Part shown: piece after piece, positions 9,102 through 30,209 of the stretch
Layout: each line of letters begins with the position of its first letter
How positions within the stretch are numbered: position 1 is the first letter of the stretch
NCBI RefSeq assembly: GCF_900167125.1
Contig: NZ_FUYC01000003.1
Span: forward strand, 248,001 to 312,000
DNA length: 64,000 nucleotides
Source of the DNA: Paucidesulfovibrio gracilis DSM 16080
Lineage (GTDB): Bacteria; Desulfobacterota; Desulfovibrionia; Desulfovibrionales; Desulfovibrionaceae
Direction: 5' to 3'
The notes under the pieces: generated by a model
What the model was told of the DNA's origin: nothing
Seen by the model: the letters and a program-made list of their open reading frames with translations, nothing else
Databases searched by the model: none
Program-made: the position numbers and the translations under genes

Positions 9102-9118
9102 TGGCGGAGAGGGTGGGA
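9102..9118. repeat. Left attachment repeat (attL core)
   Basis: TGGCGGAGAGGGTGGGA is identical to 30114-30130, the last 17 bases of tRNA-Ser(CGA) including the CCA complement. It is the core of the integration site left behind on the far side of the island. Confidence 0.9.
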
Positions 9119-9196
9119 GTATGTTTTTACTACTCGCTTAAACGCCTGATTATATATGACATTCTTCGTTTAATTCGTGAGCATATACTCTCAGTT

Positions 9197-13578: not shown

Positions 13579-13736
13579 GTGAGTCCTCCGTTTGTTTGTG
13601 GCCGAATTTGGCCGTGCATAGGAAAAGGCGGGACGCGCTATGGCTATCCCGCCTGACCAAAAGGAATGTATGTGAACTGAGCATGGATCTGACTGGTGTG
13701 CAGACAGTCGAGCTCAGGTGTCACCGGAAGTGTTCT

Positions 13737-13759
13737 TCTCTTTTAGGTGAGGGTTAATT
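13737..13759 (-). promoter_or_regulatory. T3-type phage promoter-like site (copy 2, best match)
   Basis: Read on the minus strand, the first 13 bases, AATTAACCCTCAC, are identical to the classical T3 promoter; the remainder is CTAAAAGAGA against TAAAGGGAGA, 19 of 23 overall. It lies 159 bases before the small basic gene at 13578. The DNA between 13579 and 14180 carries five such sites and no gene. Confidence 0.6.
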
Positions 13760-13856
13760 CCAATGATCTGAAATTATTTCTTTTTCGGAAAAAGTGTAGA
13801 TTGATTCGCAGCCAACAGAGGTTGTCTTTGCAGGGCATCAGGATGAAATGCGTTCT

Positions 13857-13879
13857 CTACTTCGTAGTGGGCCCCAATC
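13857..13879 (-). promoter_or_regulatory. T7-type phage promoter-like site (copy 3)
   Basis: The minus strand reads GATTGGGGCC then CACTACGAAGTAG, keeping the ATT-N6-CACT spacing of the family. Confidence 0.5.
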
Positions 13880-13980
13880 TGAACATGCTGATTTAAATGA
13901 ATTTTATTGAATCTTCTTTTGTGAATAAAATGAAATCTAACGAATGACCTGACATGGTTATTTTCCTAACCCCTCGTCAT

Positions 13981-14003
13981 TGGCTACGTAGTGCAACTTA
14001 AAT
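13981..14003 (-). promoter_or_regulatory. T7-type phage promoter-like site (copy 4)
   Basis: The minus strand reads ATTTAAGTTG then CACTACGTAGCCA. It shares a perfect 17-bp segment (13985-14001) with copy 7 at 15534-15550. Confidence 0.5.
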
Positions 14004-14016
14004 CTGGAGCCTATCT

Positions 14017-14039
14017 TATCTTCTAAGTGGGGGGTAATT
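14017..14039 (-). promoter_or_regulatory. T7-type phage promoter-like site (copy 5)
   Basis: The minus strand reads AATTACCCCC then CACTTAGAAGATA, close to copy 2 and to the T3 pattern. It lies 36 bases from copy 4. Confidence 0.5.
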
Positions 14040-14130
14040 TTAAAAGGATGAAATATTTAAAAATTGAAAAAGCGGTCTGACTAGAGTCTTGCTTCAAAGA
14101 AGTGACCACATAAACGATATGATGTCCTAC

Positions 14131-14153
14131 TGCTTATTAAGTGGGCCTTAATC
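14131..14153 (-). promoter_or_regulatory. T7-type phage promoter-like site (copy 6)
   Basis: The minus strand reads GATTAAGGCC then CACTTAATAAGCA. It lies 28 bases past the end of the truncated exonuclease gene and is the first of the tandem group as read by a polymerase moving left. Confidence 0.5.
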
Positions 14154-14180
14154 TCATCCTGCTGTTTTTTTGCTTATTAA

Positions 14181-14615
14181 TTAATTCTTCATATCCTTAT
14201 CCAGCGAAGCGATGATCCGCTCCTTCGCCTTCACGATCACCTTGGATGTCGCCAGGATTCCCTGCACGTCGTCACCCTCCAGCGTCGGACGCCGGAAGGT
14301 ATCGAAGGTTTCCACCAGGAACTCCTTCAAGACAGGCAGGATCATGGGCTTCCGCTTACCTTTGCGGTTGGACTTGTAGTTCGGGTAGATGTCCTTGCGG
14401 AAGTTATGGTCGTCGTCGGACAGGGCGATGATTACCTTGTCTGCTTCGACAGCATCCTGGAGATTGAGGACGCGCTCCTCCAGGGCGACTTCGGCTGGCC
14501 CTTGCTCGACGTGAAGGGTCCAGAAGCCGTCGCCCCAGTGGGTTGCTTTCTCTTCTCGGGCAGCGATCTGGTAGGCGAGGATGTCACCGTCGATGATGAC
14601 TACTCGGTCCAGCAT
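14181..14615 (-). pseudogene. Truncated T7 gp6-like 5'-3' exonuclease (N-terminal half)
   Basis: The 144 residues match the N-terminal half of T7 gp6-type FEN exonucleases: 'VVIIDGDILAYQ', 'IYPNYKSNRKGKRKPM' (gp6 has DPNYKANRK), 'RPTLEGDDVQGILA' (gp6 MLEGDDVMGVIA) and 'ASLDKDMK' (gp6 SCDKDFK). It ends with a stop right after DKDMKN, whereas the phage enzyme continues for about 150 more residues including further metal ligands. The start at 14615 (TAATG overlap with the antirepressor stop) has a good upstream GGAGG. It is probably inactive as a nuclease, although the metal-site core and start signals are intact and it may still be translated. Confidence 0.75.
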
Positions 14616-15451
14616 TACGCTGCCTCCTCGACGAGCCATGCAGGTTCTTCTTCGATCAATCCTTCGGAGAGAAGCAGCTGGCAGATCAGCCACATACCCT
14701 TCGGAGTGATGTAGTATGCCGCACGGTTCACGCCACCTTTCTTGAATGTACGCCACATGAAGTAACCTTCTTCTATGAACTGCTCACGAGGGACATAGCG
14801 AGTCTGTACGCCGTCCTTCATGGAAGGGTTCGGGAAGATGTCCTTGCGGAAGACACCACGTTTGAGCAGCGTCATACGCAGATCAGTGGAGGAAACCTCG
14901 AAGCCCTTGTAGGCGTCGTTGAAGAGGTAACGCTTCCCGTTGTCAGTCTGGAGATCGTTGAAGATGGCCTTGGGAGTAAGGTATTTGTTCTCGGACTCCA
15001 GAGCGCGGTTTCGTTCCTGCTCCAGCTTGAGGTTCTTCGCCAGATGGATCACCGTGTCAGGATTCAAGAGAACCTGTTCGATGACCTCGGGAGTCATGTA
15101 GGCTCCATGCTTGCGGATCGAAGGGAGGACTTCCTCGAACACCCACTCCTCGAACTGCTCGGCAGTCGGCAGCTTAGAGCGAATGATGAGACGGTAAACG
15201 TCTGCTTCGGGAATAATGGTGAGGAACTGCGCCCCACCTCTTTGACCATCACGTTTCGTTATAGTCATCTTCTCTGCCCGTCGGCAGTGATCGCCGACGG
15301 CCTTGGGCGGATTGCTATAACCCAACGCTGTTGCAACGTCCTTGGCGATGAACCAGATTTCACCATCGTCACCTTTAAGAACACGGATGATTCCAAAGAG
15401 TTCATTGGTGAACTGTGCCGGGGTCATTTTGTCAAATTTGTTGTTACTCAT
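14615..15451 (-). CDS. Bro-N domain phage antirepressor
   Basis: The 278-residue protein has a Bro-N domain at residues 15-120 ('GEIWFIAKDVATALGYSNP', 'AVGDHCRRAEK', 'EADVYRLIIRSKLPTAEQF', 'WVFEEVLPSIRKHGAYM'). A helical linker (130-165) and a C-terminal KilAC/ANT-like DNA-binding region with 'AAYYITPKGMWLICQLL' follow. Such proteins counter phage repressors or regulate lysogeny. The start at 15451 follows AAAGGAGAAAAGAA. Its stop overlaps the truncated exonuclease start by one base. A promoter-like site (15530-15552) and a hairpin (15489-15526) lie upstream. Confidence 0.85.
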   Translation of the reverse strand: MSNNKFDKMTPAQFTNELFGIIRVLKGDDGEIWFIAKDVATALGYSNPPKAVGDHCRRAEKMTITKRDGQRGGAQFLTIIPEADVYRLIIRSKLPTAEQFEEWVFEEVLPSIRKHGAYMTPEVIEQVLLNPDTVIHLAKNLKLEQERNRALESENKYLTPKAIFNDLQTDNGKRYLFNDAYKGFEVSSTDLRMTLLKRGVFRKDIFPNPSMKDGVQTRYVPREQFIEEGYFMWRTFKKGGVNRAAYYITPKGMWLICQLLLSEGLIEEEPAWLVEEAA

Positions 15452-15488: not shown

Positions 15489-15526
15489 GAGAAAAGGACA
15501 GGCCAACCTAATGACCTGTCCCTCTC
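15489..15526 (-). terminator. Hairpin between polymerase remnant and antirepressor gene
   Basis: GGACAGG (15496-15502) pairs with CCTGTCC (15515-15521). Flanking GAGAAAA and CTCTC extend the stem. On the minus strand it is followed by TTTTCTCGTTTC. It could terminate the upstream transcript, or act as a processing hairpin for RNA started at the promoter-like site 15530-15552 directly in front of it. Confidence 0.6.
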
Positions 15527-15529
15527 GTA

Positions 15530-15552
15530 TGCTTACGTAGTGCAACTTAATT
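15530..15552 (-). promoter_or_regulatory. T7-type phage promoter-like site (copy 7)
   Basis: The minus strand reads AATTAAGTTG then CACTACGTAAGCA. It is placed 79 bases ahead of the antirepressor start and shares 17 perfect bases (15534-15550) with copy 4. Confidence 0.5.
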
Positions 15553-15566
15553 GCAACTCGCTGTTA

Positions 15567-15821
15567 TCAGTGGGTTTCTGCCCAGTTCGCTCCGATCTTG
15601 TACTCGCCGTCCAGAGGACACCGAAAGTTGAACGACTCGCCAGCCTGACGGATCGCATTAACTGCGATGTCGCCAACCTCGTGAGCCAGATGCTCCCGAG
15701 AGATCATCTGAAACTCGTCGTGAACGTGGGCGGCTTGCCACACGTCAACCTCGTAGGGATTCAGGGCAGGATACTTCGGAAGCACGTATGGTTGTGCCTC
15801 CAGGTCACGCCACAGGATCAC
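15567..15821 (-). pseudogene. C-terminal remnant of a T7-type (family A) DNA polymerase
   Basis: The 84 codons encode the end of a T7 gp5-like polymerase: 'AAHVHDEFQMIS' holds palm motif C (VHDE) and the final 'FNFRCPLDGEYKIGANWAETH' region parallels the T7 end NFRCLLDTEGKMGPNWAICH. Everything upstream (exonuclease, thumb, fingers and most of the palm) is missing. The frame can be followed only to about 15890 before a stop, without a ribosome site. Located before the exonuclease fragment in the same direction, it keeps the T7 gene order pol-exo. Confidence 0.75.
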
Positions 15822-16099
15822 CGTGGAATTCGTGAAGATAATATCTTTATGAGAATACCAAAATCGAACAAGCTGGTATTATGCTTCTCTCTCTGGCTTC
15901 TAACCAAAACACTTGCGATTTCTTCGTACACAGTGAAGCGCTTCCACACATAACAAAACGAGCCTAGGGCATGTATTACCACGGCAATTGGGCGAGCTTT
16001 TTTATGAACCTCAGCATGTTTCAAGTCATTCCATGCGCATGGTTTATCTGCGTGCGATTGAGCTCGGAATCAATAATATGTAATTTTATTGTGTTCGAA

Positions 16100-16965: not shown

Positions 16966-19053
16966 CTACCTTACTGGCAGAGCATCCAGCAGATCATCCA
17001 GAAACTCCGAGCATGGATCAGTGCTCGTGACGAGTAAGTGGTCTCGAGCCCTTGTGCAAGCAACGTACAGCAGGTGTCTTTCCGTGTTGTACACCTCTTC
17101 AAGATCGGCGTTGTCGGATATGGACTCGATCCGCTCTTGCAGGGGAATGACCTCATCATCGCAGGCCATGACAACGACAACCCTGAACTCCAGCCCCTTG
17201 GCCAGATGCATGGTGCAGAGAGAAGCATGCTCAGGAGACACGTCAAGCCGCTCGTCAAGCACTCGGTAGGGTATTCCCGTCTGGCTGATGGCCGCCTCGG
17301 CACGTGAGAGCTGTTCGTCGGAGCGGACGAAGACACCGATCTCGTTCGGCACGATACCCTCGTCATATCGCTCTTGGAGCCAAGCTGAGACGGCCTCGAC
17401 CTCATCCGCTTCGCTGTCGAAGGACTTGATGACAGGGGCCGGGCCATTGAACACCGAAGTCGTACCACGCCGGTCATCCACGTTGCCATCAACATCAGCA
17501 ACGGTCGGTCCCAGAAGGCGATCTGCCTGGGTGCGAATCTGATGCGAAGTCCTGTAGTTGACGCGAAGAGTCTGACAGCGCCCACGGATTTCAACTCCGA
17601 GCGAAGTCCACGAGAAGGGCGTCTGGAATATCCGCTGCCCAAGGTCACCGGCAAAGAACAACCCGTTTTGCCTGTTGGCCGCGAGGGCTGCCAGGAAGCG
17701 AAGTTGAGGAATGCTGACATCCTGCGCCTCGTCAACGATGGCGTAGTCGTAAATAGGATGGGCAAGGGTCGAAACCTTTTCCGCCAGCGCAGAGAACAGG
17801 TCCGCAAGGGTCATCAGACCTTCCTGAGAAAGCCTTTCCCGGACCTGGCTGAAAACCTCCCAGAGTTGGCTGCGTTGCTTCTCAGGGAGGCGGGTCTTTC
17901 GTCCCAGACGAAGGACATCCCGGTAATCCTCCCATGTCCGGAGCTGCCATGCATCCACCACATCGGTCCACTCCGACATCAGAAAACGTTGGTGAAAACG
18001 GGGTCCGTCCAAGTCTGCAGAGGCTTCGCGGATGAACTGTGAAATGATCTCGTCAGGTGCGATTTTCGGAGGAGAGAGCAGGCGCTCGTGAAGCCTGAGT
18101 CCCAGGGTATTGATCGAGTGTACCTCAAGCCGTTCACCGATCTTTGGCTCGTTACTGACAAGCCTCTTCAGTTTGATCTGCAAGGCCTTGGCCAGCACAT
18201 CCGAGAAGGTGGTGAGAAGCACTCGGGAATCTGGGTCTTTCCTGGCCAGATGGACGGCACGGTGAAGAGCAACGATGGTTTTGCCGGTGCCTGCCGAGCC
18301 TGAGACCCTGGCAGGGCCGTTGTAATCCCTCTCGACGACCTCACGCTGTGAGGGGTGCAGGAAGACGGTCCATTTTTCCCAAGGGTAGTCCAGAGCACGT
18401 TTGAGTTCCTCGACGTTGGACATGACACGGAAACGGCGCAGTGCGTCGGGATGCTCGAAGGGGTCTTCGTCCTCGGTGATTACAGGAGCGACCTTCGGAG
18501 TGCCTCCTGTGGCCAGTACGAGGAGTGCTTCTGCAGCTTCCCCTGGGAGATGCTCTGCAAGGTCCAGAATCGTGTCCTCAGTGGCTTTGAGGACGTCTTC
18601 AAGCCATTCTTCCGGCACACCGTAGCCGAGAAGGTCTTCTTCTGAGATCGAAGCGAAAAAGGGAGGTTTTTCTGCCAGGGAGATTTCCTCGACCACATGC
18701 ACCATGGTCGGGACTTCGACCACTGTTTCCCTGATCTCGACGAACTGAGCCGCGCCGGTCTTCGGATGTCGTTCGAGTTTCCTCGTTTCGGCCCAGCGGT
18801 AGGCGGCATCATGGTGATCCACGTAGCAGAGAAGCAGGCTGGACTTGGTTTTGTGGACGATGAGCCTGATGTCGCTGCTTACCCGTATGGACCAGAAGTT
18901 CTTGTCCTTAGCGCGGGTAAGCTTGTGAAAGCTCATGCCGGGTGAGGCCGGGTCGAGCTGGAGGTCGAACGCCGTGGTCTTCACGGCCTTTTGCTCGTCG
19001 CCGGTCAGTCGCGAGAGGCTGTCCGTGAAGGTGTCTGAGATTCTGAATTCCAT
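16966..19053 (-). CDS. UvrD/PcrA-type helicase with N-terminal RelE/ParE-like domain
   Basis: The 695-residue protein has two parts. Residues 1-90 resemble RelE/ParE toxins ('FWSIRVSSDIRLIVHKTKSS' and 'LLLCYVDHHDAAYRWAE'). From about 235 on it is a superfamily 1 helicase: 'GSAGTGKTIVALHRAV' (motif I), 'YAIVDEAQDVSIPQL' (II), 'FFAGDLGQRIFQ' (III), 'LRVNYRTSHQIRTQADRLL' (IV), 'LCTMHLAKGLEFRVVVVMAC' (V) and 'LLYVACTRARDHLLV' (VI). Its ATG abuts the stop of the ATPase gene. SF1 helicases next to a Toprim-bearing ATPase recall GajB of Gabija, but the toxin-like extension is not part of standard GajB. Confidence 0.85.
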   Translation of the reverse strand: MEFRISDTFTDSLSRLTGDEQKAVKTTAFDLQLDPASPGMSFHKLTRAKDKNFWSIRVSSDIRLIVHKTKSSLLLCYVDHHDAAYRWAETRKLERHPKTGAAQFVEIRETVVEVPTMVHVVEEISLAEKPPFFASISEEDLLGYGVPEEWLEDVLKATEDTILDLAEHLPGEAAEALLVLATGGTPKVAPVITEDEDPFEHPDALRRFRVMSNVEELKRALDYPWEKWTVFLHPSQREVVERDYNGPARVSGSAGTGKTIVALHRAVHLARKDPDSRVLLTTFSDVLAKALQIKLKRLVSNEPKIGERLEVHSINTLGLRLHERLLSPPKIAPDEIISQFIREASADLDGPRFHQRFLMSEWTDVVDAWQLRTWEDYRDVLRLGRKTRLPEKQRSQLWEVFSQVRERLSQEGLMTLADLFSALAEKVSTLAHPIYDYAIVDEAQDVSIPQLRFLAALAANRQNGLFFAGDLGQRIFQTPFSWTSLGVEIRGRCQTLRVNYRTSHQIRTQADRLLGPTVADVDGNVDDRRGTTSVFNGPAPVIKSFDSEADEVEAVSAWLQERYDEGIVPNEIGVFVRSDEQLSRAEAAISQTGIPYRVLDERLDVSPEHASLCTMHLAKGLEFRVVVVMACDDEVIPLQERIESISDNADLEEVYNTERHLLYVACTRARDHLLVTSTDPCSEFLDDLLDALPVR

Positions 19054-20709
19054 CTACGCCCTCAGTAGTTCTTCAAGAGTATCTTTCAGGCTTTGAGCAA
19101 CTGTCGTACGGAAACCTGTCGGGATGACCCTTGCTTCTGAAAAACCATTTCCGACCGAGTTGACTAGTTGCTTAAAAACGAATTTTCCTTTGGCTCCATT
19201 AAGTGCTCTACCTTGGAACCCAGCCCAAACTGCTGCATTCTCCGGACTCCCTCCCTCCGCGTAAAGTTCCTTATTGTGAGCCCGTCTTTGACTCTGAAAT
19301 TGTTCTTGAATTGGTTGAGCTTGTCTCACCAGGATTGTATCAATGTGCTGCTCGGCTTCTGGGAGGGAACATCCAACGATTTCTTGGATTATTTCAGGAG
19401 AACAAAAGTAGGCTTCCAAATCGGAAAGATCGGTGAACCAACAGGTAGCACCTTTGTCATGGTAACTTCGTTGAATCGATGCTACCTCGTCATCCGTTAA
19501 GGAGTCCCTGTCTCTGTGGATGAGTATTTTGAATTTGTTTCCAAGCGAAGCCGACAGTTCTGCGGCTTCATCTGGATTTGGAACGTTTTGATAACCTCGC
19601 CCAGGTAGTAGAGTAACCGCCCTCTCAATCTCAGGCCACTGGGCTATGACTTTTCGAAGCCATTTCAGTTCCTTGTCCTCTGAAGCGATGATAATCTTTT
19701 TCCCAAACGCTCCCCAACCAAGTGCCAGTTCAACCGCAGAGCGGTTTTCAGACTCGACTCTTCCTCCGTTGATCCAAATAACTTTCGCGTTAAGTGGGGC
19801 TCCTCGAACGATAAATGGAGAATGTGTTGTCAAGATGATCTTGATATTCTGCTGCTCTGCAACTTCACCAAGAACCTGAACCGTTCGCTCTTGAATGGTT
19901 GGATGGAGATGAATATCAGGTTCGTCCACAAGAAGAACACCTGGAGAAAAAAGAAGGACGTACGAGAAAATTTGTATAAGTTGAATATACCCAGTTCCAA
20001 GCAGTTCTATTGGCCGAGTGTCGCCGTTGACTATTACATCGCATGAAATGAAAAGGTCTTTTTCCTCATCATGGCGAACATCAATTGAGACAGGGCCGAT
20101 AATGTTTTCTATCCAGGTTTCTATCTGTCGAATATTGTCTTGTGATTTCTCTTTAAGCAGGAGGAGGACGTTTCGGAGTATGACGTTAGCATCGCCGAAG
20201 GAGCAAGCTTTCAAGACCACTTTTTTAGAGCGTTTCTCCTCTTTGTTTGGAATGCCAGATATGCCGGGTATGTATGCGGAAAAGAAGCTTTTTTTCTTTC
20301 TAAGTTTAAGCGTCAGCTCCATGGGAACGGAGCCTTTTACCGACAAGCCCGCGTTACGTGCTGACCGTATTGTGCAACGTGCTTGATGTGTATCGCCAGC
20401 GTCATCTTTAAAAGAAAAAGAAACTCTGGAGGAAGGTGTTCCTGCCTTGTTTCCCCAAAGGGAATTGTGCCCAAGGGTCTTGTAATTATCTGTAGGCAGG
20501 TAATCCAATTCCTCGATGCCGACAGTTGAAGTGTTATTCTCGTCAACACGTTGTGCTTGGCGCATCGCACAAGTCGCAAGATGGACAGCCTGAACTATCG
20601 AGGACTTGCCGCAAGCATTGGTCCCGACGAGAATGTTGACGGGAGCAAGGTCAAGCTCAACATGGCTTACGCACTTGAAATCATTTACTTCAATCTTGGT
20701 TAATTCCAT
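19054..20709 (-). CDS. AAA ATPase with C-terminal Toprim/DUF4435-like region (OLD/GajA-like)
   Basis: The 551-residue ABC-type ATPase has 'INILVGTNACGKSSIVQAV'-like Walker A (residues 26-40; sequence V-NILVGTNACGKSS), Walker B 'GVLLVDEPDIHLHP' near 260 and 'IILTTHSPFIVRG' near 290. The second glycine of the usual GxNGxGKS is replaced (NACGKS). Residues about 338-450 look like a Toprim fold: 'KIIIASEDKELKWLRKV', 'ILIHRDRDSLTDDE' (acidic DxD-like pair) and 'CWFTDLSDLEAYF', as in DUF4435/OLD nucleases. It is fused tightly between mod (three-base gap) and the helicase (zero gap). GajA-like or PARIS-like effector activity is plausible. Confidence 0.82.
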   Translation of the reverse strand: MELTKIEVNDFKCVSHVELDLAPVNILVGTNACGKSSIVQAVHLATCAMRQAQRVDENNTSTVGIEELDYLPTDNYKTLGHNSLWGNKAGTPSSRVSFSFKDDAGDTHQARCTIRSARNAGLSVKGSVPMELTLKLRKKKSFFSAYIPGISGIPNKEEKRSKKVVLKACSFGDANVILRNVLLLLKEKSQDNIRQIETWIENIIGPVSIDVRHDEEKDLFISCDVIVNGDTRPIELLGTGYIQLIQIFSYVLLFSPGVLLVDEPDIHLHPTIQERTVQVLGEVAEQQNIKIILTTHSPFIVRGAPLNAKVIWINGGRVESENRSAVELALGWGAFGKKIIIASEDKELKWLRKVIAQWPEIERAVTLLPGRGYQNVPNPDEAAELSASLGNKFKILIHRDRDSLTDDEVASIQRSYHDKGATCWFTDLSDLEAYFCSPEIIQEIVGCSLPEAEQHIDTILVRQAQPIQEQFQSQRRAHNKELYAEGGSPENAAVWAGFQGRALNGAKGKFVFKQLVNSVGNGFSEARVIPTGFRTTVAQSLKDTLEELLRA

Positions 20710-20712
20710 CGG

Positions 20713-23493
20713 CTACACCCGAAACACTTTCATGACCTCGTCGCCGAGGTGGTTGATGACCTTGACCGCGATGCGACCATTTTGGGGCTTGTCGAAGGGG
20801 CGGGAGGTGTCGCTGTTCAGGGTCTCCCAGGCCTCCTCGTCGATCTCGGCCTTGAGGGTCGTTTTGAGGGCCTTGTAGGGATCGTTCGCACCCAGGAAGT
20901 AGGCATGGCGAACGAAGAAGCTCTCCTCGTTGTAGTCTGTGTCGATGAACCAGCAGGCGATGCCGTCAGGGCCATCGCTTCGGACTTCTCCGGTGTTGGG
21001 GTGGAACACGTCCACGCCTTTGACCTTGACCATGATCTGGTCGTCGTCGGCATCCAGAATGTCGATGTCGGGTTCGCCGAAAATAACGAAGAGGTTGCCC
21101 TTGCCGGTGTTTTTTAGGTCGTCCGCCATGTGCAGGTCCGCGTTCATGCGGGCTTTGAGCACTGGGATGCGTCCAAGCTTGTTGAATTCGGTCGAGTGGG
21201 CGTCGAAGTTGAAGGCGCAGGCGATGAGGACATCGAACCCGGCGTCCGCGGCCTCACGAGCGGCCTCGACGAGGTCTGGACGGGATACCGTGCCGAATTC
21301 AGGACCGATGAAGATAGCTGCTCTACGCTCAGTACCCTTGTCGTCTCCGCCCTCAAAGAACTTCCCTTCGGCGCTGACCAGTGCTCCAGGCCAGGGCACC
21401 AGGGAGGTGAAGTTGATCTTGTCCTCCTTGTGCGCCTGCTGGACGCCGGAGGTCTTCAAGGTCTCCAGGATCATCTGGTTGAAGTCCTGTTCTCCAAGTC
21501 CGTCAACGACAGGATTGATCTTGGGTTTGATCAGCTCGTCATTCTCGTCCACGCCCAGAACCCGGTGCGGGGAGAGGCTTTCTACGGTGAAGGGGCCAGC
21601 CACGCGGACTTTCTTGTTGTCCTCGTAGGGCTTGTCGTAGAGATACTCGAAATCGGCCTTGGCAGCGATGGAGGCGTCGATTTCCTTCTGTCTGGCTATG
21701 CGAAGTCCCCACCATTTTCGGTGAGTTTCTTTTGAATATTGTGACCAGGAGTCATCGGGCTCTCGCGGAATCTCCCATTCTTCCCAAGATTCACCAAGGG
21801 CTTTGTTCAGTTCTTCGCGGAGAGGTTCGAGGCGCTTCTGGAATTCATCCCAGATGACGTCGATCTCGACGTTATTGGCGATGGCCTTCAGAGTGATGTG
21901 AGGCACCCGTTCGTAGACAAACCCGTGCCGGATGTCCTCATAGGTTGGGGTTGAAGAGGGAGGAGTCCTGCTTAACTCTGACTCTTTGATCTGGCCTTCC
22001 TTGCTGTCCGAGAGGAGGTAGTAGGGGTAGCGAGCACCCATGATCCGGGAACGGGCAAGGGCAAGGGCAACACGAGAGGTGTCGATGGTGATCCAGCGAC
22101 GGCCCCACTGTTCAGCGACATAGGCCGATGTTCCTGAACCACAGGTTGGATCAAGGACGAGGTCACCAGGATCAGAGGCACTGAGGATGCAGCGTTGGAC
22201 TATTTTTTCTGTTGTTTGGACCACATATATTTTTTGTTCCAAAAAGCCGCCGGTTGCTGTGTCCGCCCATAGATTGTTTAAGGGTTGAACAACATAATCC
22301 TGCCAAGACCTGAAGAAAGAAACAGTCTTCCCACTAGATGCTAGACGGTTGGCTTTTATGACACGACTCATCCCGAGTTCAGTAGTCCCCCACCATCGAG
22401 CACCAGGGGTGTACTTATTTCCTTGAAAAAGGATTGTGTACTTACTGCCCGGACCTGGTTTTGTAATATTGTCGAGGCGATAGGCAAGTTGCGGGTCAGG
22501 TTGTTCAGAACCAGAGATTCTTTTAGGCATCCCAAACTCGTCCCTGATATATCGATACATTGCCCCGGATTTTGAGCTTATGTCTTTTTCAATCAGTAGT
22601 TGTCTGTATTTGATCCTGCTTTTGTCTTTTGCAAACCAAAGAATATAGTCAACGGATGAATTCATCCTGTCAGCAGCAGAAAGCCCAGATGTTTTGACAA
22701 CATTTATTTGTGATACAAAGTTGTCATCACCGAATACTTCTTCAGCTAACGCCCGTACTCGATGAACGTTTTCATCTCCGATTTGAATAAACACTGATCC
22801 AGACACAGATAGGAGTTCTCTTGCAACAGTTAGTCTGTCACGAAGATATGTGAGATAACTATGTATTCCGTCTCTCCAAGTATCACGGAAGGCTTTCACT
22901 TGCTCAGGTTCACGAGTGATGTGGTCAAATTTTCCATCTTTTACATCTCTACTAGTAGTTGACCACTGGAAATTACTATTAAATTTAATGCCATACGGTG
23001 GATCAAAGTAGATACACTGGACTTTCCCCCTAAGACCCTCTCGTTCGGCAAGACTCGCCATAACCTGCAGCGAGTCCCCCAAGATCATTCGGTTCGACCA
23101 GTTGGCATCATGCTGGTAGAACTCGGTCTTGGCTTCTTCGCTGGGCAGGCCGTTGAATCGTTCGAGGAACTCGAACATGCTGTTTTCATACTGATCCGTG
23201 GTTGACTCCTCAGACTGTCGACGAAGGTCGTCGATCAGCACCTTGGGGTGGACCTTCTCCTGGATGTAGAGCGGAGGAGCGTTGACCACGAGGTCGGACC
23301 AGTCCTGCTCGTCCTTGCCTCGCCAGACGAGCTGAGGATCAAGGTCTCGGTTCCGGCGTTCATACTCAACCCGAACCGGAGCCTTGTCCGTGTCCGTCAT
23401 GATGGACTGGTATTCTGCCGTGGGGATATTCTTGCGGCTGGCCTCGCCGTGCGTGATGGTCTCAACAGATTTGGGGGCTTTCTTCTTGGCCAT
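20713..23493 (-). CDS. Type III-like adenine-specific DNA methyltransferase (Mod)
   Basis: This 926-residue N6-adenine methyltransferase is of the beta class: catalytic 'YFDPPYGIKFNSN' near residue 163 precedes the SAM motif 'DLVLDPTCGSGTSAYVAEQW' near 440. Between them a long target-recognition region is found. The C-terminal 400 residues add a further domain ending with 'AVKVINHLGDEVMKVFRV'. It is longer than classical Mod of type III systems (600-700). It directly follows the Res gene (TAAATG junction) and precedes the ATPase by three bases. Host DNA would be modified and unmodified DNA left for cleavage by Res. The target sequence cannot be told. Confidence 0.88.
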   Translation of the reverse strand: MAKKKAPKSVETITHGEASRKNIPTAEYQSIMTDTDKAPVRVEYERRNRDLDPQLVWRGKDEQDWSDLVVNAPPLYIQEKVHPKVLIDDLRRQSEESTTDQYENSMFEFLERFNGLPSEEAKTEFYQHDANWSNRMILGDSLQVMASLAEREGLRGKVQCIYFDPPYGIKFNSNFQWSTTSRDVKDGKFDHITREPEQVKAFRDTWRDGIHSYLTYLRDRLTVARELLSVSGSVFIQIGDENVHRVRALAEEVFGDDNFVSQINVVKTSGLSAADRMNSSVDYILWFAKDKSRIKYRQLLIEKDISSKSGAMYRYIRDEFGMPKRISGSEQPDPQLAYRLDNITKPGPGSKYTILFQGNKYTPGARWWGTTELGMSRVIKANRLASSGKTVSFFRSWQDYVVQPLNNLWADTATGGFLEQKIYVVQTTEKIVQRCILSASDPGDLVLDPTCGSGTSAYVAEQWGRRWITIDTSRVALALARSRIMGARYPYYLLSDSKEGQIKESELSRTPPSSTPTYEDIRHGFVYERVPHITLKAIANNVEIDVIWDEFQKRLEPLREELNKALGESWEEWEIPREPDDSWSQYSKETHRKWWGLRIARQKEIDASIAAKADFEYLYDKPYEDNKKVRVAGPFTVESLSPHRVLGVDENDELIKPKINPVVDGLGEQDFNQMILETLKTSGVQQAHKEDKINFTSLVPWPGALVSAEGKFFEGGDDKGTERRAAIFIGPEFGTVSRPDLVEAAREAADAGFDVLIACAFNFDAHSTEFNKLGRIPVLKARMNADLHMADDLKNTGKGNLFVIFGEPDIDILDADDDQIMVKVKGVDVFHPNTGEVRSDGPDGIACWFIDTDYNEESFFVRHAYFLGANDPYKALKTTLKAEIDEEAWETLNSDTSRPFDKPQNGRIAVKVINHLGDEVMKVFRV

Positions 23494-26400
23494 TTATGCT
23501 TCTCCTTCGTCGCTCTGAAGGGCTTGTTCAATCATGGTGTTGAATTCGGATTTGATCTTCTCATCGAAGTCGGACTCGAGCTTGTAGACCTCTCGCAGTT
23601 CGGCGAAGTCCCAGCGGCCATAGCTGCCCAGGTTGTTCACGCCCGGCACCCAGAGGGTTTCCATGGTAGCTTTCTTGTCCTTGGCGTTCTCAGGCCGGTA
23701 GCCTTTGATCTCCACCACGAGGTTGAGCAGGTCTTGGTGTCCGTCATCGACCTTGACGATGAAGTCTGGGATATAGCGCTTGGTCTCGGAGCCATAGCGG
23801 TAGGGGACTTCGAAACCGAGGTTATGGTTCTTGACGTATGCCTTGACCTTGGGGTGCCCCTCCAGCACACGGCAAAACTCGCCTTCCCAGTCGCTGTCGA
23901 GGATCGCCCAGTTCACATGGCAAAGCTCGGAAGAGGTCTCCCATCGGAGCATTTTCGAAGTGTTGAAGCTCACATGGCGTGTCGAACCCGTAGGGTTGTA
24001 GGGGTCGAGAACGGCCTTGATGTCCCGTTTGTCCTGGTGGGCACGAGTGATGCCCGCCGTGATCCGTTCGCAAGCTAGATCAGCCAGTTCCTGATACATG
24101 AGCTGTGCTGGGTAGGTGCCGCTCCTGCAGTTTAGGCAGCTATCCAGCCACTGTTTGGTGATGCGTTTGAGCTGCCCAAAGAGGTGCAGCTTCGGCTCCT
24201 CATTCGGGTCACGCCACTTGGTGTAGAGCAACCGCTGCGTCAGGTGGAACAGGAGCGTGGAGCGCCTGAGGTCTCCGGTGTGGACGAGATTTAGGTCCAC
24301 GCCTTCGCCGATAATGCCTTGATTTTGAGTGCTAGTTGGCCCGACAGTCTCGGGTGTCAGCTCAAGCACTGAGTCATCGTTGAACTCGGCGGTCAGACGT
24401 TCGTCCGGCAGTTCCACTCGGTAACCGGCCACACGGGGGAACTCGATCTCGAGATGATCCCGCTCGGGCCGCATGGCCTTGACGTGGACGGTGATGCGAG
24501 GCTTGATCGGGCTCGTGGGAACTGGCTTGGCTGTGAAGTCGAAGGGAATGCCCAGAACATCGGCGTACTCGACGTTGAAGAGACCTTCCTCGTTGACATC
24601 GTAGGACTGACGGCGAAGGGCTCGACCGATGACCTGTTCGCAGAGGAGCTGGGTGCCGAAGGCTCGGACACCCAAGACGTGAGTGACTGTGTTCGCATCC
24701 CATCCCTCGGTCAGCATGGACACTGAGACCACGCAACGAATGGACTCACCAAGCCGACCGGCCTTGCCGACCGTGTTCATGACCTCACGGAGGAGATCGG
24801 CGTCGGTGAGATTTTCGGCCTGCTGGCGATCTCCTGTCCGCTCGATGATTTCTCGGCGATAACGCTCGATCTCGTCAGCCGCCATCTTTCTAAAGTTGTT
24901 ATCAAGGGCATCGCCAGACTCAAGCTGCTCGCTGTCGATCAGCAGGGTACGAGGTCTTGCGATAGGGTTGCCGTGTTCATCGAAGTTACGGAACAGTGCG
25001 AGGCGACCATTTTCAAGTTCCGTGGAGCCGTCATCGTTTTCTCTGAAAAAGCCCGAGATATAGTCGTAGACGAGCTTCGAAGTCGCTGTGTTGTTGCAGA
25101 CCACTATGAAGCAGGGAGGAACATCGATCCCTTCTTCCTGCCAGAGGTTGTAGGTCTTCTCGTAGTGGCCATAGAGGGACTCGAGTGCGGTTTTCAGCTT
25201 GGTCGGGATGCTGAGTGGGTCAAGACCTTTTGCCTTGCCTCTGCCCTTTTTGGGCATGTCCTTTCGGATGTGTTCCCATAGGTTCCGGAACATCGGCATT
25301 TCGTTTCCAGGAATGTCGTCGGACACCGGGACTCGCGGAAGCTTCACGATGCCACACTCGATGGCATCCATGAGAGAAAAGTCGCTCATGGTCCAGGGGA
25401 AGAGGGTGCCTTCGGCATACCCAGAACCCTTGAGGAAAAAAGGTGTTGCAGAAAGGTCGATGACCCTGGTGATTCCGAGTTTGCGCTTCACCGCCTCGAG
25501 ACCGGAAATCCACAGGCGGGCCGCCTCCTTGTTCTGTGCTGCTTCCTGCTTGTCTTCCTTGGTGATGTCCTCCTCGGACTCCTCCTCGGGCTTTTCGCGG
25601 TAGCAGTGATGCGCCTCATCGTTGATGGCCATGATGTTCTTGAGCCCCATGAGGCTGGGCATAACCCGCTGGATCATTTGGCCTTCAGTCTCGAGGGTAT
25701 TCAGAGGGTCTCCACGACCCTGCAGAAGAGATCGTCCGCCCTTGGAGATATCGAGCCTCTCACGAAGCTTGAAGGCATGGTAGTTGGTGATGACGATCTT
25801 GGCCCGTTCCAACTCTCCCATCATATCAGAGGGGATCAACTCCCTGCTCTGGTAGTAGCTGTCAGGATCGCTGGGCTGGAGGACGCGGAGTCGGTCCTTG
25901 ATGGTGATACCGGGGGCCACGATGAGAAAGCCCCTCGTGAATTTCTTGCTGCCAGGGTGGCGGACGGCGTTGATAGTCTGCCACGCGATGATCATGGCCA
26001 TGACCGTCGTCTTTCCTGCTCCGGTCGCCAACTTCAAGGCGAGCCGCATGAGTTCCGGGTTGGCGTCCTTATTGGCGTTGGTGAGATGCTTGAGTATCTT
26101 TTTCCCATCGGGGGTGTGCGGTGCCACCTCGGTGAGCCATATGGCGGTCTCCACGGCCTCTACTTGGCAGAAGAAGGGGCGGATGCCGCTGAAGTTGTGA
26201 TGTCGCCAGTGCTGGAGGAGTCGAGCCGTCTCCGGAGTGACCTGCCATTGGTTGACGCTTGGCAATGCCCTCCAGGAGTCTACGTGCCGTCGGACCTCGT
26301 TGATGACCGAGGTGATGTCGTACTTCTGGTCAGTGGTAGACAGCCCCTTGCCTTCATCAAGGAGAAGTTCTGCCTGTTGTTGCTTGGATTTCTTCCGTTT

Positions 26401-26553
26401 TTTGGGCTTGGGGATAGGGGTAACGAATTCAGCCGGTCGCCTGCAAGGCTTGACCTGCTGCGTGGGCTGACCGCTCTCGTCCAGCTCCCAGTGTTTGTTC
26501 GGATAGTCGTAGGGAGAGTTGAGAATAGGGTGCTCAAAAAACGGATTGGACAT
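23494..26553 (-). CDS. Type III-like restriction helicase-nuclease (Res)
   Basis: The 1019-residue protein has SF2 helicase motifs 'LALKLATGAGKTTVMAMII' (motif I, near 170), 'IMAINDEAHHCY' (DEAH-type, near 290), 'VIDLSATPFF' (III), and 'SMLTEGWDANTVTHVLGVRA' with 'EQVIGRALRRQSY' (V/VI). Near the C-terminus, 'RYIPDFIVKVDD' followed by 'VVEIKGYR' gives a PD-(D/E)xK nuclease core. It would translocate on DNA and cut unmodified sites together with Mod. ATG 26553 follows AAGGGAAC. The gene leads the operon; in most type III loci mod comes first, so the res-mod order here is less usual. Confidence 0.9.
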   Translation of the reverse strand: MSNPFFEHPILNSPYDYPNKHWELDESGQPTQQVKPCRRPAEFVTPIPKPKKRKKSKQQQAELLLDEGKGLSTTDQKYDITSVINEVRRHVDSWRALPSVNQWQVTPETARLLQHWRHHNFSGIRPFFCQVEAVETAIWLTEVAPHTPDGKKILKHLTNANKDANPELMRLALKLATGAGKTTVMAMIIAWQTINAVRHPGSKKFTRGFLIVAPGITIKDRLRVLQPSDPDSYYQSRELIPSDMMGELERAKIVITNYHAFKLRERLDISKGGRSLLQGRGDPLNTLETEGQMIQRVMPSLMGLKNIMAINDEAHHCYREKPEEESEEDITKEDKQEAAQNKEAARLWISGLEAVKRKLGITRVIDLSATPFFLKGSGYAEGTLFPWTMSDFSLMDAIECGIVKLPRVPVSDDIPGNEMPMFRNLWEHIRKDMPKKGRGKAKGLDPLSIPTKLKTALESLYGHYEKTYNLWQEEGIDVPPCFIVVCNNTATSKLVYDYISGFFRENDDGSTELENGRLALFRNFDEHGNPIARPRTLLIDSEQLESGDALDNNFRKMAADEIERYRREIIERTGDRQQAENLTDADLLREVMNTVGKAGRLGESIRCVVSVSMLTEGWDANTVTHVLGVRAFGTQLLCEQVIGRALRRQSYDVNEEGLFNVEYADVLGIPFDFTAKPVPTSPIKPRITVHVKAMRPERDHLEIEFPRVAGYRVELPDERLTAEFNDDSVLELTPETVGPTSTQNQGIIGEGVDLNLVHTGDLRRSTLLFHLTQRLLYTKWRDPNEEPKLHLFGQLKRITKQWLDSCLNCRSGTYPAQLMYQELADLACERITAGITRAHQDKRDIKAVLDPYNPTGSTRHVSFNTSKMLRWETSSELCHVNWAILDSDWEGEFCRVLEGHPKVKAYVKNHNLGFEVPYRYGSETKRYIPDFIVKVDDGHQDLLNLVVEIKGYRPENAKDKKATMETLWVPGVNNLGSYGRWDFAELREVYKLESDFDEKIKSEFNTMIEQALQSDEGEA

Positions 26554-26732: not shown

Positions 26733-28169
26733 TCAATAAATTTTAGTTATATTGTTAGGTGTGTCTATGGGGCTATTGGCTTTTGTCGTCACCACCACAG
26801 TTTGGCTGTAGTTGTGATAAGATTCTAAGGTTCTTGCAAGTTCATGCAAGTCGTCCGGACCAAGGTGAGCATACCTGAGAGTTGTTGCGATACATTTGTG
26901 CCCCATCCATTCTTTTACGTGAACCAAAGATGTTTTGCTTTGTATTAATCGAGAACAACATGTGTGACGAAGCGTGTATGGAATAAGTTCTTTTTCGTTT
27001 TCAAGGCCAATAAGCTTTTTCGCTTTATTCCAAGTTTGGTGGAACCAAGTGTTGTCGGTGTAGGGGAAAAGTAGCTCCCTACAAGCTGGTTGGTAGCCTG
27101 AAAGTCCTGTTATCTCCTTTATCCGTTTGTGAAAGATGGACTTGACTCTCATGGTCATGGGTATCGATCTTGGGTGATCTGTCTTGTTCAACCAAATCGT
27201 TACAATTTTATTGGATAAATCAACATCTCTGACTTCAAGATTCCATAATTCAGAAGGGCGCATCCCTGTGTCTAGCAGGATGCAAAAAGCGTCTTTATGG
27301 TCTGAGCGTTTCATTATCTCAAAAGCCTGGATGAAGGACTGCTCCTCTTCTGGAGATAGAAATCGAACTCTATTGGGTCGCTCCCTGAATTTTCTAATTG
27401 CAGGTTTTCTTTGGATTTTCCCGATAGATAATGAGGTGTTCAATATTTTTGAAAGTGTAGCCAGCTTGCGATTGACTGTCGAAGGAGCATTGTTGAAACG
27501 CTCCTTGAGGTGAAACTTGAACTCTTCAATATGAGGCTCTGTAATGTCTGAGAGCTCTGTTTCTCTACCAAAGAAATCCAATGCGTATTGCGAATTGCGA
27601 ATAACATGGCCGAGACTTCGATTGCCCGACCAATGATATTTGAGTGTATACTCGTAGGCTTCTTGAAGCGTCCATTTTGTTGTTTTCTTAATCTTACCCG
27701 ATATTCTGGTGTGTTTCTTATTTTTAATATGCGAAAGGTTCAAATCTAACTCTGGCTGGCCGAATGAATCGCAGATGACCTTAAAGCGCCATTTGATTGC
27801 ATCTATTAGGTCAGCAAACGTCGCCCAGTGGCGATGTTGATCGATATTAATGTTTGCTTGGAATTTTCCGTTTTTTATTCGTATGCCTTTGGGGAGTGCC
27901 CCCTCATCAAGTCGTGTTAGATTTTTTTGTTCACGCTCGACCAGTCTTATAAATTGGGGATCCATTAGGATTTTAGCGTGTTGATTTTTAGAACATTCTT
28001 TTCGATCATCAACTTCATTTTTTTGGAGTATTTCGCGTGTGAATTCCCTTGAAGAAATCGCATCTTCCAAGGTCGCACATGTGCAATTAACCCGCTTCCC
28101 ATTGACCATTATTCTATATTGGTAGCCTTTGCCCCATTTTCTGATTCCTAGTGGAAGTTTTTTTGTCAT
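26733..28169 (-). CDS. Tyrosine recombinase / integrase (second integrase)
   Basis: This 478-residue phage-type integrase has an N-terminal arm-binding region (1-110), a SAM-like core-binding domain (about 165-265) and a catalytic domain (270-450). Visible catalytic elements are 'DTGMRPSELWNLEVRDV' (Arg), 'YTLRHTCCSRLIQ' (HxxR region), 'VKEWMGHKCIATTLRYAHL' (His and the tyrosine nucleophile). The gene is AT-rich compared with the neighbouring res-mod genes. An inverted repeat (28171-28192, ATACTC/GAGTAT) covers its ribosome site and may be an autoregulatory operator. It is the inner integrase, suggesting that a second element with the defence operon was nested or that the island is composite. 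Confidence 0.88.
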   Translation of the reverse strand: MTKKLPLGIRKWGKGYQYRIMVNGKRVNCTCATLEDAISSREFTREILQKNEVDDRKECSKNQHAKILMDPQFIRLVEREQKNLTRLDEGALPKGIRIKNGKFQANINIDQHRHWATFADLIDAIKWRFKVICDSFGQPELDLNLSHIKNKKHTRISGKIKKTTKWTLQEAYEYTLKYHWSGNRSLGHVIRNSQYALDFFGRETELSDITEPHIEEFKFHLKERFNNAPSTVNRKLATLSKILNTSLSIGKIQRKPAIRKFRERPNRVRFLSPEEEQSFIQAFEIMKRSDHKDAFCILLDTGMRPSELWNLEVRDVDLSNKIVTIWLNKTDHPRSIPMTMRVKSIFHKRIKEITGLSGYQPACRELLFPYTDNTWFHQTWNKAKKLIGLENEKELIPYTLRHTCCSRLIQSKTSLVHVKEWMGHKCIATTLRYAHLGPDDLHELARTLESYHNYSQTVVVTTKANSPIDTPNNITKIY

Positions 28170-28315: not shown

Positions 28316-30025
28316 TTAATCTATCCAACATGGATTATGCAGATGCTCTAGATCGAGCATTTCATGGAAATCGATCTTGGCGACGACTTCATTCAGTAGC
28401 GTATCAACGGGGTAGTTCCCTTCATATCCTGCCGTTACATCGTCAAACTCGCCTTGCTCATGCCCGACGACCTCTTTGACTTTGTACCTTGCCAGATCAA
28501 GTAGCTTTGCCCTGGTAATGAAGGTATGCCGGAAAGAGTGGAAGGTGACATCGCTTACGCCTTCCTGAGCTCCAACATTCTGCTTGCGCCTGAATCGAGT
28601 GAACCATTTTGACGCCGCATGGGAATACTTGCCTTTCACGTCTGGCGGTAGATCGTTGAAAAGACGTTTGGTTGTTCTTCTTCGTTTCGAGTCGACAAAA
28701 GCCAAGAATCCAAGATCATGGGCAAGATATGGATGGATCGGAACCAGGCGTTTACCTGCTTCCGTCTTTACGTGCTTATCCCTGCCTTGATCGTTTATGT
28801 CCAAGATCCAGACACCGGACTCCTCACGAATATCAGCCATTGAGAGCTGGCAGAGCTCTTCTAAACGAGCGCCAGTAAAAAGGCCGAGAAGAGGAAGCCA
28901 GTACTGCCAGTCCTTTCGGAGATTACGGCGTTTGTATGTGTCGGGGCTGAAAAGTCGTTTCAGCTCATCTTCGTTGAAAGCCCTGCGTTGGGATTTTGCT
29001 GCAGCCTTGCCTCCAGGGACTTCGAGAACCTTGTTCAGAGGTTTGGCCTTGTCGATGAATCCTTCAAGCTCACACCAGTTAAGGAATGAGCGTATGGCAG
29101 TGAAGCGTGTTTCGAGAGACTTCGGCTTGTAAAGATCCTTTTCTGGGATACTCATCCGTAGCAATTCATGCAGAGTTTTATCCTTGTACCGTTTAATCCT
29201 TGCTCCAGGCAGTTTCTGGATCTTTTTCCAGTAGCCTTTCATGTGGTCGCGTGACAATTCACTCATGGTCAATTGGGCATTACCCATTTTGACCAGCTCA
29301 GCGAATTGCTTCAATTGTGGCGGTATATCCTTGCGACTTGCAGCACCCCACGGATTGGGACCTTCCGTCTTGAATTCGATGTACTTGTCGATTGCTTCGA
29401 GGATTGTTGGGGATGGTGGAGGCGTTGGAGCAGTCGGTTGCATGATTTGAGACTGCTCTTGCCCTTGGAGGATTCCTACAAAGCCTGTTTTACGAGCTGC
29501 ATTCAGAAATCTTGCTTCGACTTCAAGCAGGGCAGCGCAGAATTCACGGTATTCTTTGGAGTCCTTTTCAATATCTATTTCTTCACGATCCAGTAGCGCT
29601 GAGGCTCTACCTTCAACCTTCTTGAGGTTGCTACATTCAAGAGCTTCTTGGGCGTCTGTGGCAAGGATTGTGAGCTGTTCATTGCGCTTGTCCAGCTCGT
29701 CTAACTCCCATGAACGGGAGAGGCGGTATTCACGTTCTTCTTCGAGCGCCTCATCGAGCCATTGCTGAGCGATGCGGCGTATGGTTTCACGACTCAATCT
29801 ACCAGACATGACATCATCCCTCCTTTTACGAAATTCATCAAATATCGCATGCGAGGTAGTGACCAGTCTTATAACCTTAGGCCGCGCTTCTCTCAAGTAT
29901 CTGGTTTTGAGCGACTTCTTGAATTCTTGCATGCCCATGACCGGGCGCAAATCGCTTGGAATTCGAAGTCGAAAATAGAGGCCATTTCGATGGCTGGTGA
30001 GGTAGGATGGGGCAGAAAAAGACAT
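28316..30025 (-). CDS. Tyrosine recombinase / island integrase next to tRNA-Ser
   Basis: The 569-residue integrase has a DUF6538-like N-terminus ('YLTSHRNGLYFRLRIPSDLR'), a long helical middle, a core-binding domain (about 215-320) and a catalytic domain: 'GLFTGARLEELCQLSMADI' (Arg), 'HVKTEAGKRLVPIH' (Lys), 'FHSFRHTFITRA' (HxxR), 'VVGHEQG' (His) and a tyrosine in 'TAGYEGNYP'. It begins 89 bases from the tRNA-Ser 3' end, the usual arrangement for the enzyme that made the insertion. ATG 30025 has a very good ribosome site (AAGGAGG), but the start codon can be covered by a leader pairing (30022-30102). Confidence 0.9.
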   Translation of the reverse strand: MSFSAPSYLTSHRNGLYFRLRIPSDLRPVMGMQEFKKSLKTRYLREARPKVIRLVTTSHAIFDEFRKRRDDVMSGRLSRETIRRIAQQWLDEALEEEREYRLSRSWELDELDKRNEQLTILATDAQEALECSNLKKVEGRASALLDREEIDIEKDSKEYREFCAALLEVEARFLNAARKTGFVGILQGQEQSQIMQPTAPTPPPSPTILEAIDKYIEFKTEGPNPWGAASRKDIPPQLKQFAELVKMGNAQLTMSELSRDHMKGYWKKIQKLPGARIKRYKDKTLHELLRMSIPEKDLYKPKSLETRFTAIRSFLNWCELEGFIDKAKPLNKVLEVPGGKAAAKSQRRAFNEDELKRLFSPDTYKRRNLRKDWQYWLPLLGLFTGARLEELCQLSMADIREESGVWILDINDQGRDKHVKTEAGKRLVPIHPYLAHDLGFLAFVDSKRRRTTKRLFNDLPPDVKGKYSHAASKWFTRFRRKQNVGAQEGVSDVTFHSFRHTFITRAKLLDLARYKVKEVVGHEQGEFDDVTAGYEGNYPVDTLLNEVVAKIDFHEMLDLEHLHNPCWID

Positions 30026-30113: not shown

Positions 30114-30130
30114 TGGCGGAGAGGGTGGGA
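30114..30130. repeat. Right attachment repeat (attR core, in tRNA-Ser 3' end)
   Basis: This 17-bp copy of TGGCGGAGAGGGTGGGA is the natural 3' end of tRNA-Ser, identical to 9102-9118. Confidence 0.9.
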
Positions 30131-30209
30131 TTCGAACCCACGTACGGGCTATTAACCCGTAACTCGATTTCGAGTCGAGCGCGTTACGGCCGGACTTCGC
30201 TACCTCTCC
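30114..30209 (-). tRNA. tRNA-Ser (CGA)
   Basis: This is a complete 96-base class II tRNA: acceptor GGAGAGG/CCTCTCC, G discriminator and encoded CCA, anticodon loop CTCGAAA (CGA, reads UCG), long variable arm (TACGGGTTAATAGCCCGTA), T loop TTCGAAT. Its 3' end is the target of the island. The 30210-30343 stretch upstream carries no gene and presumably its promoter. Confidence 0.96.

Follow-up and report, generated by a model that had tools for sequence, protein, structure and literature searches.

A mixed-specificity array of T7-like promoters beside repA in an integrated, satellite-like island of Paucidesulfovibrio gracilis

Why would an integrated island that encodes no T7-type RNA polymerase carry a cluster of T7-like promoters next to its replication gene? 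The question is raised by a 64,000-nucleotide stretch of the Paucidesulfovibrio gracilis DSM 16080 genome (hereafter the window), in which a first-pass annotation had placed five promoter-like sites directly upstream of a RepA operon and proposed that they either answer to a T7-like phage, as in a phage satellite, or titrate its polymerase. The cluster near the replication gene and the want of an own T7-type RNA polymerase in the integrated island stand; the sites are not simply upstream, since a terminator-like hairpin (13654-13626) separates them from repA. The answer that we consider first, and to which the sequence lends about even chances, is that the array would serve the RNA polymerases of several T7-like phages and thereby activate, in a satellite-like island, the genes for the antirepressor and for replication.

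An att-bounded island with a phage fragment

The island, ~21 kb in length, is inserted in a tRNA-Ser gene between attachment repeats at 9103 and 30115, with tyrosine integrase genes adjoining the tRNA (Table 1). Its build is that of a satellite: it is integrated, bounded by att repeats and equipped with an integrase, and the scan of its proteins in the window found no structural or packaging gene families. The features of a T7-like prophage, an RNA polymerase of its own and structural/packaging genes, are both absent. A search for T7-type RNA polymerase genes found none in the four island genomes; the same search matched six other genomes of the family, which makes the absence from the window genome meaningful. 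"Satellite" serves here as a working hypothesis. The cargo includes defence genes, namely type III restriction-modification in the window genome (G000) and a type I restriction-modification subunit in a sister island (G231). The conserved 229-aa protein had no family match in our searches. The serine recombinase region is 91% DNA-identical in another genome of the same genus (G001), where it also adjoins an att copy; there (L123 514-1948), the recombinase stands by the attachment repeat and is followed by an apparent transposase gene at the contig end, the contig being devoid of the remainder of its island.

Table 1. Features of the island, in window coordinates (promoter entries give the bases at -11 to -8)
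Feature	Position	Strand	Remarks
Attachment repeat, GGCGGAGAGGGTGGGA core	9103..9119	+	far island end
Serine recombinase, 225 aa	9835..10512	-	Pfam Resolvase 2.2e-29
Variable ORF, 233 aa	10798..11499	-	other gene (209-233 aa) in this slot in G266, G250, G231
Conserved protein, 229 aa	11429..12118	-	equivalent position in G266, G250, G231
RepA-like AAA_25 ATPase, 348 aa	12290..13336	-	Pfam AAA_25 4.6e-30; 99% identical in G266, G250
Small basic protein, 85 aa	13321..13578	-	overlaps repA start; conserved in G266, G250
Terminator-like hairpin + short U run, between array and repA	13626..13654	-	-18.7 kcal/mol including small upstream helix
Promoter a, AATTAACCCTCACCTAAAAG	13740..13759	-	start 13759, ATT 13758; CCCT, as phage T3; matrix 13.9; identical in G266
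Promoter b, GATTGGGGCCCACTACGAAG	13860..13879	-	start 13879, ATT 13878; GGCC; motif match; 12.8 in G266
Promoter c, ATTTAAGTTGCACTACGTAG	13984..14003	-	start 14003, ATT 14002; GTTG; matrix 12.3; identical in G266
Promoter d, AATTACCCCCCACTTAGAAG	14020..14039	-	start 14039, ATT 14038; CCCC; matrix 10.1; CCCA class in G266
Promoter e, GATTAAGGCCCACTTAATAAG	14133..14153	-	start 14153, ATT 14152; GGCC; matrix 17.8; 1/21 changed in G266
T7-like 5'-3' exonuclease, N-terminal part only	14181..14615	-	87.5% DNA-identical to G039 over 14186-14618
Phage antirepressor, Bro-N + KilAC	14615..15451	-	
Terminator-like hairpin, promoter f to antirepressor	15491..15526	-	common to G039; -24.3 and -24.6 kcal/mol
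Promoter f, AATTAAGTTGCACTACGTAAG	15532..15552	-	ATT 15551; GTTG; matrix 14.9
T7-like DNA polymerase, C-terminal fragment	15567..15829	-	phrog DNA polymerase 2.9e-12; 76% DNA-identical to G039
Variable cargo: UvrD-like helicase, OLD-like ATPase, type III methyltransferase + restriction subunit	16966..26553	-	
Tyrosine integrase, first	26733..28169	-	
Tyrosine integrase, second, with DUF6538	28316..30025	-	90% DNA-identical in G266
Attachment repeat	30115..30131	+	inside 3' end of tRNA-Ser
tRNA-Ser gene	30114..30209	-	

Conservation of the cluster in related islands, which the first-pass annotation had raised, is borne out: the cluster or an equivalent recurs in the sister islands. That of G266 (20.2 kb) has different cargo and a Rha-type antirepressor, and retains the array DNA over its full length at 90% identity. 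The G250 island (23.5 kb), whose cargo is BREX-like as recognised by eye, has lost most of the G000-type array and bears six further promoters ahead of a P22-type antirepressor; that of G231 (20.1 kb) combines the same repA core with type I restriction cargo, five promoters and a P22-type antirepressor. The core stays constant while cargo and antirepressor vary, in islands of 20.1 to 23.5 kb, and these similar sizes (~20 to 23 kb) are at most suggestive with regard to packaging. G000, G266 and G250 span two genera but share RepA at 99% identity, which speaks for recent transfer. Of the eight loci with a close RepA in the order, five have arrays, one more (G012) has a single candidate promoter and the other two (G044 and G193) have none; distant RepA loci, used as negative control, have no arrays to speak of. 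At the fifth array locus, G183 (identical with contig L145), an independent SP6-like array precedes a RepA that is 43% identical; two 150-base units there, 85% alike, differ at -11. In phages and plasmids, none but distant relatives of RepA turned up, and neither RepA nor the 229-aa protein matched any viral contig in IMG/VR.

Between the cargo and repA lies a fragment of a temperate T7-like phage, composed of the polymerase C-terminus, promoter f, a hairpin, the antirepressor and the exonuclease N-terminus. It aligns to G039, a 37.9-kb IMG/VR contig with a tyrosine integrase, an RNA polymerase and five dispersed promoters; the polymerase-exonuclease region is the only part of the island with DNA similarity to G039. 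A search for phage records containing the array stretch gave similarity to the exonuclease and antirepressor only. The recognition of the exonuclease and polymerase genes as phage fragments, and of the antirepressor-bearing fragment as part of the module, corrects and extends the first-pass annotation. The exonuclease truncation is identical in G266, and the gene is full length (263 aa) in G231. The antirepressor slot between the polymerase and exonuclease pieces varies among Bro-N/KilAC, Rha and P22_AR (window 14615-15451; L133 13842-14888; L135 14592-15212, minus strand; L249 9017-10222), as if swapped between conserved flanks. A further observation concerns L145 (11273-12409), where the gene adjoining the SP6-like array and repA encodes an integrase with 46% identity to the G039 integrase.

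Promoter framework and specificity bases

The region 13579-14180 contains five T7-like promoter sites, all on the minus strand, and the steps of 114, 36, 124 and 120 bases reported in the first pass are exact at the level of motif positions; a sixth site (f) lies beyond this region. We scored the sites with a position weight matrix trained on the promoters of T7, T3, SP6, K11 and virus contig G039, island sequence being left out. Four of the five array sites match the T7-family promoter consensus (-17 to +3) above chance: shuffles of the stretch gave a mean of 0.12 matches at score >=10, and 0 of 5000 attained the observed four. Site b, which scores <8 in the window, exceeds chance in G266 only (12.8). 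Across 288 genomes of the family, matches to the pattern TTAANNCNCACTANGTAAGC (<=1 mismatch allowed) were confined to three repA islands. Three other identities were rejected: RepA iterons, because the sole direct repeat consists of two 14-base copies outside the array and every site fits the phage promoter framework; host sigma-70 promoters, the count of which is no higher than in shuffled sequence; and structured RNA in the spacers, for which there was no signal, just the terminator-bearing ends folding better than shuffles.

The four islands, from three genera, hold 24 such promoters in total, and each island mixes classes. The framework AATTA....CACT...AA is constant across the 24, and positions -17 to -13, -9 and -7 to -4 are near-invariant. 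By contrast, entropy reaches 1.4 to 1.9 bits at -12, -10 and -8, and position -11 is C (T3-like) in 11 promoters and G (T7-like) in 13. The bases by which T7-type polymerases distinguish promoters (-11, -10 and -8) are thus variable within every island. Orthologues of promoter f illustrate this pattern, with GTTG in G000, CACC in G266 and GACG in G039 in a retained frame. In intact T7-like phages, matters are different: -11, -9 and -8 are invariant in the promoters of G039, those of G039 and the G247 prophage belong to the GACG/GGCG class, and those of the G130 prophage are GTTG throughout, the class of promoter c. None of the intact T7-like phages examined has a mixed-specificity array, their -11 and -8 being fixed, nor do G039 and the G247 prophage, the two best examined and each with five dispersed promoters, contain the cluster, an occurrence that would have made it an ordinary phage feature. 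Clustering by itself is unremarkable, because the G130 prophage has three promoters of one class close together.

Residue 748 of the polymerase specificity loop and the base at -11 are established discriminators between T7 and T3. The polymerases examined follow this rule, with Asp at residue 748 in T3 and LUZ100 (C at -11) and Asn, Arg or Lys in T7, SP6, G039, G247 and G130 (G at -11). Specificity loops are known to yield orthogonal polymerase-promoter pairs (PMC4299498). The sequences make a strong case for the identity of these sites as T7-like promoters and for the mixed specificity of the array, and the differences in specificity bases suggest that more than one phage, not a single helper, is concerned. 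The first-pass idea of a satellite switched on by a T7-like phage is accordingly supported in part: the promoter cluster beside repA stands, and several phages are probably involved. Phages with promoters of the GGCC, CCCC or CCCA classes were not found, a GGCC-class pattern had no match in IMG/VR, and remoter phages with related polymerases had no clear promoter sets on this framework. IMG/VR matches to a GTAAGC pattern were rejected as arrays: most of the 19 contigs concerned (L180-L198) have one near-identical site, CCATTAATACCCACTATGTAAGCCACC, present once each.

A rather unlikely reading, in our estimate, is that the promoters are now functionless remains of recombination with serial T7-like phages, left once polymerase-exonuclease DNA had been taken up by a prophage or island. 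The truncation of polymerase and exonuclease, the alignment of the segment to G039 and the decay of site d (5 of 20 bases changed in G266) agree with it. Nevertheless, sites e and c differ between G000 and G266 at 1 of 41 bases, whereas the spacer next to them differs at 35 of 144 (p 7e-4 for sites picked post hoc), a CCCT-class promoter persists in G250 at the position matching promoter a despite different flanks, and separate arrays exist in G250, G231 and L145. The remains of a single phage, moreover, would carry one class.

Terminators and possible uses of the array

The terminator-like hairpin that separates the last promoter from the small gene preceding repA has equivalents in G266, G250, G231, G012 and L145, that is, at 6 of the 6 repA loci examined. 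T7 RNA polymerase passes the early terminator that halts the host enzyme. For this reason, and because the ~45 bases from hairpin to start codon in the window leave little space for a host promoter, we favour the view that the hairpin acts as a gate, silent to the host polymerase and opened by a phage polymerase. Alternatively, a short terminated RNA would be produced, suiting an origin or a decoy, and the hairpin might halt the phage polymerase as well, which counts against a role of the array in sensing phages.

If the array does turn on island genes, an infecting T7-like phage would make its polymerase, which at least one array promoter should fit, and this enzyme would transcribe the antirepressor gene as well as the operon of the small gene and repA. 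Host transcription of both would be low because terminator hairpins precede them. The island would consequently be derepressed, excised and replicated, either to ride in phage particles, as a satellite, or to harm the infection. That a phage polymerase transcribes these genes and reads through the terminator, and that the later steps follow, including replication and packaging, is what we infer from the arrangement of these elements. A broader proposal, to which we give somewhat less than even chances, is that mobile islands of one family, which either parasitise T7-like phages or protect against them, sense multiple phages through a terminator-gated promoter panel, retuned by the -11 to -8 bases alone. 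Several facts weigh against sensing: exonuclease and polymerase are present as broken pieces, much as they would be in a decaying prophage; the RepA loci of G044 and G193 lack such promoters and that of G012 has one candidate; and our searches retrieved neither phages for the GGCC, CCCC and CCCA classes nor viral contigs with RepA or the 229-aa protein.

Primary origins of T7 and T3 consist of one or two promoters and an AT-rich stretch, and polymerase transcripts prime the phage DNA polymerase. The tandem (T7, phi1.1A/B) or single (T3, phi1.05) promoters by AT-rich DNA resemble the array, although each phage has one specificity and its origin lies within the phage genome. The array might likewise be a T7-type replication origin whose multiple promoters would allow different phages to replicate the island, whether or not repA takes part, an alternative that we regard as unlikely. 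The array stretch is AT-rich (63%, against 50% for the island; 60-64% in the G250 and G231 arrays), in the T3 record the primary origin follows immediately on promoter phi1.05, and brief terminated transcripts would fit priming. By the title of Chung and Hinkle 1990, cited in PMC7697293, T7 packages plasmids that carry its origin together with its concatemer junction. However, the island possesses its own repA, the antirepressor genes right behind the G250 array would be left unexplained, and the similarity to G039 is limited to the polymerase-exonuclease region and therefore gives no sign of a common packaging sequence.

Much less probable is the titration proposed in the first pass, by which the sites, as one component of the island defence set, would sequester the polymerase of the phage and so slow it. 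Clusters of sites followed by terminators would yield short futile transcripts, and the islands do contain restriction systems; yet five to seven sites in a single chromosomal copy would hardly rival many phage genomes unless amplified, and a decoy would not need a fixed place ahead of antirepressor and repA.

Comparison with known phage satellites and T7-like phages

The proposed activation of the island by phage polymerases has its nearest parallels in SaPIs and other PICIs, whose promiscuous repressor is Stl (PMC5779228, PMC6695447), which are also att-bounded, lack structural genes, carry a replication gene and respond to several unrelated phages, as proposed here. In SaPIs, phage proteins are sensed by a repressor able to bind partners of unrelated structure, whereas the island sensor would be DNA promoters. 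PICMI (PMC10803314) and StCIs (PMC13376191) are likewise att-bounded, linked to virulent phages and protective of the host; the accessible parts of these accounts describe AlpA or Stl switches, make no mention of T7-like polymerase promoters, and give a size of 6.1 kb for the PICMI described, against ~21 kb for the island.

Our literature search, whose coverage excluded most subscription papers, retrieved no satellite of T7-like phages and no such promoter array, although few phages are better known than T7; phage sensing by a promoter panel seems undescribed. If the proposal is true, no satellite-like element of T7-like phages would have been known before, nor any that reads the identity of a phage polymerase. 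The island would track several phages of differing polymerase specificity via few base changes and tie its defence cargo to phage-triggered mobility, and its promoters would offer natural polymerase-promoter pairs for synthetic biology.

LUZ100 and other temperate T7-like phages (PMC10134795) belong to the same group as the island fragment, with polymerase, exonuclease and integrase of the same type. In contrast with the island, they are complete phages with an RNA polymerase and one promoter motif genome-wide. In G039, the polymerase gene (L018 7716-8330) appears by eye to be split by an intron-like stretch with an HNH-like frame.
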